Assembly (NCBI GenBank): GCA_023263555.1
Contig: JALQVX010000248.1
Location: forward strand, 1-36,495
DNA: 36,495 bases
From: Crocinitomix sp.
Lineage (GTDB): Bacteria; Bacteroidota; Bacteroidia; Flavobacteriales_D; Crocinitomicaceae
Direction of reading: 5' to 3'
The notes below the pieces were generated by a model. The model was given only the letters and a program-made list of their open reading frames with translations, made no database searches and was not told the origin of the DNA. Below, piece by piece: positions 16,255-21,966 of this stretch. Positions within the stretch are counted from its first letter, which is position 1. Each line of letters opens with the position of its first letter. Made by a program: the position numbers and the translations under genes.

Positions 16255-16331
16255 TTTATAATTATTGAATAAGGGCTTTACTTATATACACTCAGAATTG
16301 GCCGAATAATCTACAACAACAAACCAAAATC

Positions 16332-16367
16332 AAACCCCTCCTGCTACCAATCGGAGGGGTTTTTTTA
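16332..16367 (+). terminator. Intrinsic terminator after OmpA-family gene
   Basis: AAACCCCTCC-TGCTACCAATC-GGAGGGGTTTTTTT. Confidence 0.85.
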
Positions 16368-16378
16368 TTCATCACCGC

Positions 16379-16395
16379 TGAAACCTAGGGTTTCA
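16379..16395. repeat. Short perfect inverted repeat TGAAACC-TAG-GGTTTCA
   Basis: 7-bp arms, 3-nt centre, just upstream of the transposase remnant. Confidence 0.5.
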
Positions 16396-16531
16396 AAAAT
16401 TAAATGAATTTCTTCATATCAGGCTACCAAACACTTGTTATATACGTCTTTAAACTCAATTTCCTAGAATATGGCAAAACGTAAATAGATTACGTTGCTA
16501 GCATTGATCTTAGCTCACAAAATTATGAGTT

Positions 16532-16995
16532 ATGGATTTGACATTTATTACAACCCATTTGAACACACACAAAAAGTGCATCAAGTATCTTGAGCAACAG
16601 AGATGGAGCGGGACACCATGTTGTCCGTATTGTAAAAGTACTAAGAGTAGCCCAAAAGCCCTTCGGCATACCTGTTTGAGTTGCTCTAATTCTTATAGCG
16701 TGACAGTAGGAACAGCTTTTGAAGACTCTAACCTGCCTCTTTATAAGTGGTTTATGGCTATTTCATTAATTCTATCAGCCAAAAAAGGAATTTCATCAAT
16801 GCAGCTCTCGCGCGATATTTCAGTTAATAAAAATACGGCCTGGCTATTACAAATGAAGATCCGTAAAGCTATGGAACAGGATGGTGATTTGTTGTTGGAT
16901 GGAATTGTAGAGGCTGATGAAACCTTTGTGGGAGGGAAAATCAATGGTCAATTTCCGAGAAAGAAAAATCAACCTGGAAAAGCAAGAGGGCAAGC
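16532..16995 (+). pseudogene. IS1595/ISXO2-type transposase, N-terminal portion only (ORF runs to 17002)
   Basis: Zinc-finger CCPYCKSTKSSPKALRHTCLSC; FEDSNLPLYKWFMAISLILSAKKGISSMQLSRDISVNKNTAWLLQMKIRKAM; first catalytic Asp VEADETFVGGK; ends abruptly at KARGQAA and lacks the rest of the catalytic domain. Confidence 0.85.
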
Positions 16996-17748
16996 AGCGT
17001 AACAATTACCGTTCATGAATTACCAATTGTCACTGCAATTGTTACTCCAGATCAAATTTGTCTCGGTGAATCTGTAATTTTTAAAGGAGACGGAGCAATT
17101 GATTATACATGGGACGGAGAAATGATTGATGATGAAGAATATACACCTCTCGAACCTGGCTCATTCACATATACAGTTATAGGAACGAACGAATGGGGGT
17201 GTGAGAATAGCGCCACTGTAACATTAACAGTAAATGATTTACCTGATCTCACAGCGGGAACAGATACCATTATCAATACCGCGGGAACGGCTTTACTGGG
17301 TGCCTATAGCAGTGAAACAGGGAGTTATTTTTGGTTACATGATCAAAATATCGTTTGTAATACCTGTCCGATTACAACGGCTAATCCTGTTGAAAACACC
17401 ACATATATCGTTGAATTCGTGGATGCGAACGGATGTAGCTCGTATGCAGAAGTACTGATCCTTGTGAATTTTGTGAAAGGGATAGGCGTTGCGGATGCCT
17501 TTACACCGAATGGTGATGGAATCAATGATGCCCTTTTTGTCCTCGGATACAACCTCGAACAAATACATTTTGAAATTTACAATAAATACGGCGAAAAAGT
17601 TTTTGCATCTTCAGACAAGCGTATAGGATGGGATGGTACTTATCATGATATGGAGCAAAATCCTGGCGTTTTCACGTGGGTTCTCTATTATACACTAACA
17701 GACGGCGAGCGAGGTATTTTAAAAGGCAATACTACCTTAATTCGATAA
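16996..17748 (+). pseudogene. C-terminal remnant of a T9SS type B (gliding motility-associated C-terminal domain) protein with Ig/PKD-like repeats
   Basis: Frame open from at least 16999 (VTITVHELPIVTAIVTPDQICLGESVIFKGDG...) through the track ORF at 17122; C-terminus VADAFTPNGDGINDALFV...FEIYNKYGEKVFASSDKRIGWDGTYH...LKGNTTLIR. No signal peptide and no start codon at the 5' end. Confidence 0.85.
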
Positions 17749-17919: not shown

Positions 17920-19059
17920 ATGAAAAATTTGCTCCTTTGCTTTAGTCTATTAATCCTTAACACGTCAATTGCTCAAGACACGATCGTTTTTGCAGATGGC
18001 AAAGTCAAAAACGTGAATGTGATTTCTATAGATAGTTTAGGTCAGATCATCTATGAACAGAACGGCAAAACGAAAACAATTCATCAATCAGAAATTATCG
18101 AATATTCGGATGATGGACAATGGTATGGTTATCAAAACGAAACCAATAATTTTGTTAAAATCGACGGATCGAATTACCGCTTATATAATCGATTTTTTGA
18201 TTCAAGTCCCCGCTATAGTTACGGCCGCTTTTCAATTGCAACAAGTTTAATGGAGCCGTTTATTTATGCAAATATGGCCGATTGGACAAACGTAAATGTA
18301 CTTTTTACAAATCCAAGAATAACGATAGAACCTGCTTACAGAATAAGTGAGTATTGGTCCGTTAAAATTCCGTTCTCTTTGGGCTTTAATCTTCGCGCAA
18401 CATCAAGTTATGACCTACCTGTGAATAATCTCTATGAAAATAATTCGATCTACCAAGGAAATGTGAGGTTGTCTTCTAGAATGCACAATTACGCACTTCC
18501 AAACGCAGTTGGCGACGGAATTCAACCCAATATCACTCCACTCTCTCCACGGGACAATTGGAACTCGAGCTCAAATATCATTACCCATGAGCGAAACTTT
18601 CTTTATCAACTGGGGATTTCTCCCAAATTTTACCCCTTTCGACAAAAAAGACAATCACTTTTTATTCAGCAAAGTTTTATCGTAGGGATAGCTGATTATT
18701 TTCAGGTAGATTATTATTCAAACTTTGATACGACACATTTAGACATGTCAGAAACCGAATTAATACAATGGAATTTATACAGTGAAAAAGCATTGCAAAG
18801 CAATAGTCAATTTGTATTTTTTAGATATGAGGCGCTTGTAGGCATGGAGTTCAACTGGGCGGAGAATTTTAATTTTTCTGCCGAATTGGGTTTCACCACA
18901 CAACCAATCAATAGGGGAGATCCTGATCGATTTTATTTTCAATACAATCCTGGTGAAGATTATCAACTGGTACAAACGAAAACGTATCAGTTCGCAAATC
19001 AAATCTATGCTTTGGGACGGATACATCTTATTTACAAATTTAACGGGATTAAATTATGA
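17920..19059 (+). CDS. Exported hypothetical protein, probable outer-membrane beta-barrel
   Basis: Signal peptide MKNLLLCFSLLILNTSIAQ; DTIVFADGKVKNVNVISIDSLGQIIYEQ N-terminal domain; many alternating aromatic strands; ends YALGRIHLIYKFNGIKL. Confidence 0.7.
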   Translation: MKNLLLCFSLLILNTSIAQDTIVFADGKVKNVNVISIDSLGQIIYEQNGKTKTIHQSEIIEYSDDGQWYGYQNETNNFVKIDGSNYRLYNRFFDSSPRYSYGRFSIATSLMEPFIYANMADWTNVNVLFTNPRITIEPAYRISEYWSVKIPFSLGFNLRATSSYDLPVNNLYENNSIYQGNVRLSSRMHNYALPNAVGDGIQPNITPLSPRDNWNSSSNIITHERNFLYQLGISPKFYPFRQKRQSLFIQQSFIVGIADYFQVDYYSNFDTTHLDMSETELIQWNLYSEKALQSNSQFVFFRYEALVGMEFNWAENFNFSAELGFTTQPINRGDPDRFYFQYNPGEDYQLVQTKTYQFANQIYALGRIHLIYKFNGIKL

Positions 19060-19820
19060 GCAACTCACCTACTTTTCGAATTCTTGCCATTCTTACAGTT
19101 GTTGTTCTCCTGCTCTCTGCTTGTGGTTCACTAAAAAATGGCAACTTTAATCGTCAAAAATATACAACTCTTAAAAAAATTGAATCCCATCATGAACCGG
19201 TTGCCGAAACGGAACATCATGACGAAGCTAACGTCTTTGTAGGTGTTGAAAATGAAGAAGTGACCTACGAAGAGACATTTGTCACAGATGACCTAAATCA
19301 AGGTTTTGAAATTGAACAAGCAGGGATTGTTGATGAAATACACCCTTCAGCTCCAGATTATGCCAATGAAGATATTAGTCGTCCAGTAGAAATAATTCAC
19401 CCTGAAAAACTGATTTGGGGGAATCCTGAAGCACCAGGAAATAAGGACTTCAATACCTTCTCACAAGAAGAAAAGAATAAGGCAATCATTCAATTTAACG
19501 CACTGTTCAATGCAGGTTTAGCACTGCTTATTGGTTCCGTGGTACTCTTCATCTTGGCCTTTATTATTTCATTGTCCTCCACAACACTGGTTACGTTCGC
19601 ATTCGCCTTTATAGGGGCGGCATTTTTATTCACAGCTTGGATTATCAGTCTTGTCGCTTTAAACAAAGTAAGACGTATTAAGAAAGAAAATTTTGTCGGA
19701 GATCTTGGTATTAAGGTTTGGTTAGCACGGGTTGTTGCTTTTATTGGGATTGCGGCCTGTATCATCACCTTATTAGGCGGGATAATACTCGGGATACTTT
19801 CTCTCGCGCGTCTCATCTAA
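19056..19820 (+). CDS. Hypothetical lipoprotein with C-terminal transmembrane helices
   Basis: Start overlaps the upstream stop (ATGA); lipobox VVLLLSACGS; three hydrophobic helices in C-terminal half. Confidence 0.7.
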   Translation: MSNSPTFRILAILTVVVLLLSACGSLKNGNFNRQKYTTLKKIESHHEPVAETEHHDEANVFVGVENEEVTYEETFVTDDLNQGFEIEQAGIVDEIHPSAPDYANEDISRPVEIIHPEKLIWGNPEAPGNKDFNTFSQEEKNKAIIQFNALFNAGLALLIGSVVLFILAFIISLSSTTLVTFAFAFIGAAFLFTAWIISLVALNKVRRIKKENFVGDLGIKVWLARVVAFIGIAACIITLLGGIILGILSLARLI

Positions 19821-19857
19821 TTTTCTCTGAAAACGAGATGAGCTAAAGAGCAACTAT

Positions 19858-20427
19858 TTAGGCTCCTTGAATAGGTTTAGCAGAGCGAATCGTTTTGACC
19901 ATATCCTCAATAATCGGTCTTAACTCACCTTCTTCACCACTCCGTAAAACATAATTATACCCGTCGATCATGACCTCACCGTAACAATGAAACGATTTTT
20001 TACCCCCTTGTCCTTCGTGCAGGGTTCGTTGATACATAATTAATTTAGGTTCATCTACGATATATTCATAGTCAAAAATTTTCTCCAATTCGGCCAAACG
20101 CTTTTTCTCATTTAACGTTTTATCTTTTTCTTTACCATAATCCTCAATGATCAATTCAAATCGTGGACCTATCGTCAAATACCACAAATAATCTCCCTCT
20201 TCATGATCAATACGTGGATCGATTGAATTTCCAGTGGATGAGGCCACTTCAGGCAACATAAGACTTAAATTTAAACCTTCATTCACCAGCGATATTTCAT
20301 TCATATCGTCGAAACTCAATGCTAAACTATCTTTATTAGCACCATCTGTTGCACTATCATTTGACGCTCCACCGCAACTTACTATTAAGAAGGGTAAAAA
20401 AGCAGCTAGTATAATTAATTTTTTCAT
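19858..20427 (-). CDS. Hypothetical lipoprotein
   Basis: Preferred start MKKLIILAAFLPFLIVSCGGASN (ATG 20425-20427); lipobox present. Confidence 0.7.
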   Translation of the reverse strand: MKKLIILAAFLPFLIVSCGGASNDSATDGANKDSLALSFDDMNEISLVNEGLNLSLMLPEVASSTGNSIDPRIDHEEGDYLWYLTIGPRFELIIEDYGKEKDKTLNEKKRLAELEKIFDYEYIVDEPKLIMYQRTLHEGQGGKKSFHCYGEVMIDGYNYVLRSGEEGELRPIIEDMVKTIRSAKPIQGA

Positions 20428-20657
20428 CATTTTCAATTTTAATCGCTCCATTAGGATTGAATCTTGCACATTCTCACCACGTAATTCCTAAACAGAATGT
20501 ATAAACCTCTATGGCAAAGTAAAGAAAAAAATTCTGTTCTGCTTTTAATCAACGCCGTAAAAACAAAAATAAACCTGATCTGTTATTCTTACTTGTGAAT
20601 TTAGTAATTTTATACGCAAATAGTGTCCACTAAAGCCAAAAAAACAAAGTCCGATAA

Positions 20658-21072: not shown

Positions 21073-21966
21073 TCATTCGAAATAAGTATACGCTGTAAAT
21101 TGTAAAATGGTCATAAAATCAGTTGCCTCATCCCTCGTTATAATGGCCTTTAGCAGAAGAGATTCCTGAAAATAAACCAATTGATTCTCGGTGATATAAG
21201 CCTCATTTTTAAAATAATGCTGTGCCATTACATTGGAATGATCATCATATTCATACGTCCATTTTGAGGTGTAATTACCAATCACACTTTTCTCTACGTT
21301 TTTTTCAATGACCCGACCCTTTTCGTCATATTTATAAAAAGTATTGGTCAACCCCGACCCCATTTTCAAACGACCTTCTTGCCGGATAAGAAATCCATTT
21401 TCATCAAAATAGAAAAACTCATCCATGTAAATTCGACCTGATGTATTGTAATACACTTTCTTATAATTCATCCCCTCCAAATCAATGTACTCAAACTTCT
21501 CAATCGAAACGCTGAAGGATTGATCAAGTATAAAGTTTGTCTTATTTATTCCTTTTGTGAAATCTCTGCGATATTCTTCACTTAAAATGCGTCCCCTTTC
21601 GTCATAGAGGTAATGATACGATTCAAATCCTTGTTTGTCCGATTTTCGAAGCACAGCCAATCGCCCATTTTCATCATATTCATACATTCTTACCAAGGTA
21701 TCTCCGAATTGTGTGCGAAAATCTTTAACAAGCTGGCCTGCTCGGTTAAATTCATATCCGTAAAAATCTTTCGTTTTATGAATAACGTCCAAAGTCGCCT
21801 TGGTCGAATAATAGCCTCTGATCGTCTTCACTTTATTACGCTGAATAAAGTCTACACTAAAAAAGGGAACATCACCAAATGTCTTCCCATCAGTGTTGTC
21901 GATCATCTGTGTAAATCCTGTTTGTAAACCGATCAGCGCTATAACTATCAAACCATATCCCTTCAT
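21073..21966 (-). CDS. Exported YD/RHS-like repeat protein
   Basis: 297 aa; repeated YEYDENGRL / YLYDERGRIL / YFDENGFLI / YKYDEKGRVIEK / YEYDDHSNV units; hydrophobic N-terminus. Confidence 0.65.
   Translation of the reverse strand: MKGYGLIVIALIGLQTGFTQMIDNTDGKTFGDVPFFSVDFIQRNKVKTIRGYYSTKATLDVIHKTKDFYGYEFNRAGQLVKDFRTQFGDTLVRMYEYDENGRLAVLRKSDKQGFESYHYLYDERGRILSEEYRRDFTKGINKTNFILDQSFSVSIEKFEYIDLEGMNYKKVYYNTSGRIYMDEFFYFDENGFLIRQEGRLKMGSGLTNTFYKYDEKGRVIEKNVEKSVIGNYTSKWTYEYDDHSNVMAQHYFKNEAYITENQLVYFQESLLLKAIITRDEATDFMTILQFTAYTYFE

Follow-up and report, generated by a model that had tools for sequence, protein, structure and literature searches.

A truncated IS1595-family transposase joined to the tail of a T9SS type B cargo gene in Crocinitomix sp.

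The locus described here combines parts of two known systems. The first is the IS1595 family (NF033547; PF12760/PF12762), with which it shares a zinc ribbon, an HTH, the first catalytic Asp, and a left inverted repeat like that of a full-length relative (here L045); it differs from the family in having no 3' half of the transposase, no second Asp, no Glu and no right inverted repeat. The second is the group of T9SS type B cargo proteins (TIGR04131, CHU_C). Here the shared features are the C-terminal sorting domain, the Ig-like repeats and the presence of paralogs in the same genome, whereas the N-terminus and signal peptide of such proteins are absent. REPINs and their RAYT transposases form a further known system, of paired intergenic repeats with a transposase, and are relevant to the relatives of this IS.

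The window, by which is meant the whole stretch of DNA analysed (36,495 nucleotides), corresponds to the complete contig C3 of a host genome of 3.11 Mb, which is assembled in 398 contigs with an estimated completeness of 85%. It was compared with other genomes by a DNA search of 59 genomes, and with same-genus relatives for synteny. The features around the join are as follows.

16332..16362, forward strand: terminator-like inverted repeat (AAACCCCTCC...GGAGGGGTTT), a 10-bp perfect inverted repeat 3' of an OmpA-family gene
16459..16475, forward strand: left terminal inverted repeat of the IS, ATTTCCTAGAATATGGC, a motif common to the ends of its relatives
16532..17002, forward strand: IS1595-family transposase, 5' half only (from the ORF, NF033547 and alignment with L045)
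about 16986..16999, no strand: junction between IS-like sequence and cargo-gene repeat (from frame translation and paralog alignment; the base-level position is approximate)
about 16999..17748, forward strand: 3' end of a T9SS type B cargo gene, with Ig-like repeats and a CHU_C sorting domain (from profile matches and paralogs)
17920..19820, forward strand: two intact genes of 379 and 254 aa, 3' of the cargo tail (from ORFs; context only)

The transposase ORF encodes 156 residues, ending ...GKARGQAA, and its stop codon is at 17000-17002. The initial annotation had placed the stop around 16995. The fragment retains the zinc ribbon, the HTH and the first catalytic Asp (VEADETFVGGK). In a profile search residues 66-154 match NF033547 (transpos_IS1595) with an E-value of 2.7e-24 and 86.3 bits, above the cut-off of 75; the Pfam zinc ribbon (9e-5) and DDE domain (0.034) both fall under their cut-offs on this fragment. 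The full-length relative L045 is about 285 aa long, with inverted repeats at both ends and a gene that ends at the right repeat, and is 69-71% identical to the window transposase over the shared part. On alignment, the window protein breaks off after 156 of about 285 residues, roughly half way. Because L045 continues beyond this point, the break is internal to the transposase, which bears out the original reading that the join lies inside the gene and not at an end of the IS. The catalytic triad is incomplete in the window copy, which has the first Asp and is missing the second Asp and the Glu, and no credible reverse-complement partner for the left inverted repeat is found within the window. 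Given these missing parts, the fragment should be unable to move itself.

The left end of the IS is recognised from related loci in public genomes (L045-L048), in which ATTTCCTAGAATTTGGC, either exactly or in closely similar form, precedes the gene and its reverse complement closes the element on the other side. The motif is present at the left ends of L045, L046 and L048, and the reverse complement at the right ends of the same three and of L047; the left end of L047 is uncertain, with two copies of the motif upstream. In the window the left inverted repeat begins at about 16459, about 80 bp later than the position of 16379 at which the IS region had been taken to start. It is the sole exact site in its own genome, and matches with two mismatches occur at the control level.

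The cargo tail (17002-17745) matches CHU_C with an E-value of 6.9e-14 (52.2 bits, cut-off 27) and the TIGR04131 T9SS type B sorting domain with an E-value of 1.8e-11 (44.0 bits, cut-off 35), and there is a weak match to Ig_7 (E 1.2e-4). Type B paralogs are numerous in the genome. Those of the cargo tail are 47-52% identical at the protein level, the closest having 52% protein and 65% DNA identity, and DNA matches to the tail in its own genome reach only 65-74%. Intact homologues of 813 and 1053 aa are present in the same genome. The tail itself has no N-terminal Sec signal peptide, and the earliest ATG in its frame, at 17122, falls within a repeat. With no signal peptide and no ATG before 17122, it should not be exported. 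The proposal that a surface protein has lost its N-terminus is supported, the frame of the tail running directly into transposase sequence. As to the description of this protein as a large exported adhesin, the sequence identifies it no further than as a T9SS type B sorted Ig-repeat protein, and 'adhesin' was a guess.

It is worth adding that contig C246 of the same genome (L108) carries, at 2-1414 on the minus strand, a T9SS Ig-repeat protein of which the N-terminal part, 471 aa long, is present before the contig end cuts it off. There is no overlap between this end and the window. The front that the window's cargo gene lacks may be the piece on C246, which could also belong to another gene.

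Translation shows that the transposase and the cargo tail are in different frames. The cargo frame aligns with its own paralogs from about ASSVTITV onward and is open further upstream, to about 16921. This open stretch is compatible with the two halves being one gene, expressed through a frameshift. Against this stand the change of frame, the lack of a signal peptide, and the occurrence of the pair in no relative in the 59-genome DNA search, and such an explanation is barely credible. A single-gene fusion is rejected in view of the frame change and the lack of conservation. The matches in the 59 genomes are short, each lying on one side of the junction or in a flank. The repeats found around the junction, both direct and inverted, are short and have two copies each; they probably arose by chance.

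The IS had been assumed to be a multi-copy family, and this is not so in the host assembly. It is present there as a single copy, with no second copy found, and the one other IS1595 transposase is 30% identical. When the full-length relative is used as query for the 3' half, the host genome yields only the window copy and a 26% identical relative. A near-identical copy of the cargo tail is likewise absent from the assembly.

These observations bear on whether the join is an assembly misjoin in one species, with a contig that enters an IS copy being wrongly continued into a T9SS repeat gene. The host assembly is fragmented, and several T9SS repeat genes stop at contig ends (C246, C250 and C84), that on C246 being without its 3' end. 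In G059, the genome that carries the intact L045, contigs end inside or beside this IS, so that such an IS evidently does break assemblies. However, the reason originally given for a misjoin, that both halves are multi-copy, is weak, and the lack of any near-identical counterpart to either half in the rest of the assembly disfavours a repeat misjoin, with the proviso that copies not included in the bin would escape notice. We regard a misjoin as rather unlikely, but as the main alternative.

The surroundings of the join provide further evidence. On the left, 16300-16370 (query positions 1-70) matches relatives at 75-79%, at sites directly beside their OmpA genes. Since relatives keep this terminator region beside their OmpA genes, the left flank of the IS is, on this sequence comparison, native. 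The left block dpm-LVIVD-OmpA (a glycosyltransferase, an LVIVD-type protein and the OmpA-family protein) is kept in nine relatives, and the genes that come after OmpA in relatives are variable. On the right, a block consisting of the gene at 19858-20469, PTPS, the gene at 21073, a phosphodiesterase-like gene and MurF/Alr is conserved in same-genus genomes. The left and right blocks are adjacent in none of the relatives examined, and the arrangement before a deletion was not recovered.

The separation of OmpA from the right block in all of these relatives would fit a misjoin. It would also fit an event that united the two blocks, either recombination between copies of the IS or an inversion that had one of its ends inside it. 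An exchange between two ISs should leave a whole IS, however, rather than half of one joined to unrelated sequence, and the assembly has no second copy to serve as the partner that this option in the initial annotation would need. In addition, the point at which gene 19858 loses synteny with its usual neighbour, about 19820-19858, is almost 3 kb away from the junction (about 16990). Recombination or inversion is thus improbable.

The gene at 19858 adjoins a 119-aa ORF and an RDD gene in relatives. Here the 119-aa ORF and RDD gene are on C132, with other neighbours. Because this break is seen from two contigs (the window and C132), a real rearrangement near 19820-19858 is likely, and this change of partner by the right block counts against a misjoin. 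The genes to the left and to the right of the junction find their matches in one set of same-genus genomes; for G003 the identities are 66-92% on the left and 57-81% on the right. As these values are broadly comparable, the two sides are unlikely to come from distant species. The 379-aa gene (17920) has relatives of about 30% identity in the same-genus genomes G001, G003 and G005 (L142-L145), which are in other surroundings and are partly tandem paralogs.

On the basis of these observations, we consider it probable that an IS inserted near the OmpA gene and that a single deletion then left two remnants. This is the best fit of the three options initially proposed, given the internal break and the absence of a second copy. 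It is favoured by the internal position of the break, the intact left repeat, the lack of a right half in the assembly, the native left flank, and the homology of the tail to intact paralogs in the same genome. The IS1595-family element would have entered about 90 bp beyond the terminator of the OmpA gene, oriented like that gene. Afterwards a single deletion would have removed the right half of the IS and the 5' part of the cargo gene, possibly together with DNA between them, so that an Ig-like repeat of the latter would now follow the transposase at about codon 150-156. Since the IS, the cargo tail and the two genes after it share one orientation, a single deletion would suffice. The anatomy of the join and the parts that are missing can be read from the sequence, and the order of events, with insertion first and one deletion afterwards, is what we infer. 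The outcome would be two pseudogene pieces in different frames, both probably non-functional.

The ends of the window IS also recur around a group of catalytically dead IS1595-derived proteins, all flanked by IS end repeats, at the following positions.

L046, 4001-4645: catalytically dead IS1595-derived protein
L047, 4001-4633: catalytically dead IS1595-derived protein
L048, 4001-4657: catalytically dead IS1595-derived protein
L187, 2970-3605, minus strand: fourth catalytically dead IS1595-derived copy

These proteins, of about 210-219 aa, retain the zinc ribbon, the HTH and the C-terminal helices, and have lost the DDE middle. They are about 50-57% identical to one another, and all four frames are intact. 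Synonymous differences between the genes are saturated (pS 0.73-0.83) as against non-synonymous differences of 0.27-0.35, which together with the intact frames indicates purifying selection, part of which may date from an active ancestor. A literature search by title and abstract found nothing on point for IS1595 derivatives without catalysis.

One genome (G061) contains the 17-bp end motif ATTTCCTAGRATTTGGC 43 times genome-wide with up to two mismatches, the control giving 0. In the loci fetched from it (L187-L197), 34 of 42 motif sites are intergenic. Inverted motif pairs of 57, 72, 83, 125, 157 and 218 bp have unique and mutually unrelated interiors, two such pairs being 57 bp long, and two tandem units of about 119 bp are found at the start of contig C140. 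The layout is similar to that of REPINs and RAYTs, with the difference that it would be built on a DDE transposase without its catalytic core. We suggest, tentatively, that the window fragment may be a relic of an IS1595 subgroup with ends ATTTCCTAGAATTTGGC ... GCCAAATTCTAGGAAAT, which elsewhere in Flavobacteriales would have yielded a maintained, catalytically dead DNA-binding protein, with paired end motifs in intergenic positions in one genome.

The junction itself is ordinary, a product of common genome decay or, in the worst case, of faulty assembly. For annotation, neither the transposase fragment nor the cargo tail should be called functional. The main use of the window copy is that it supplies the ends of the IS1595 subgroup, and these lead to the family of dead transposases.
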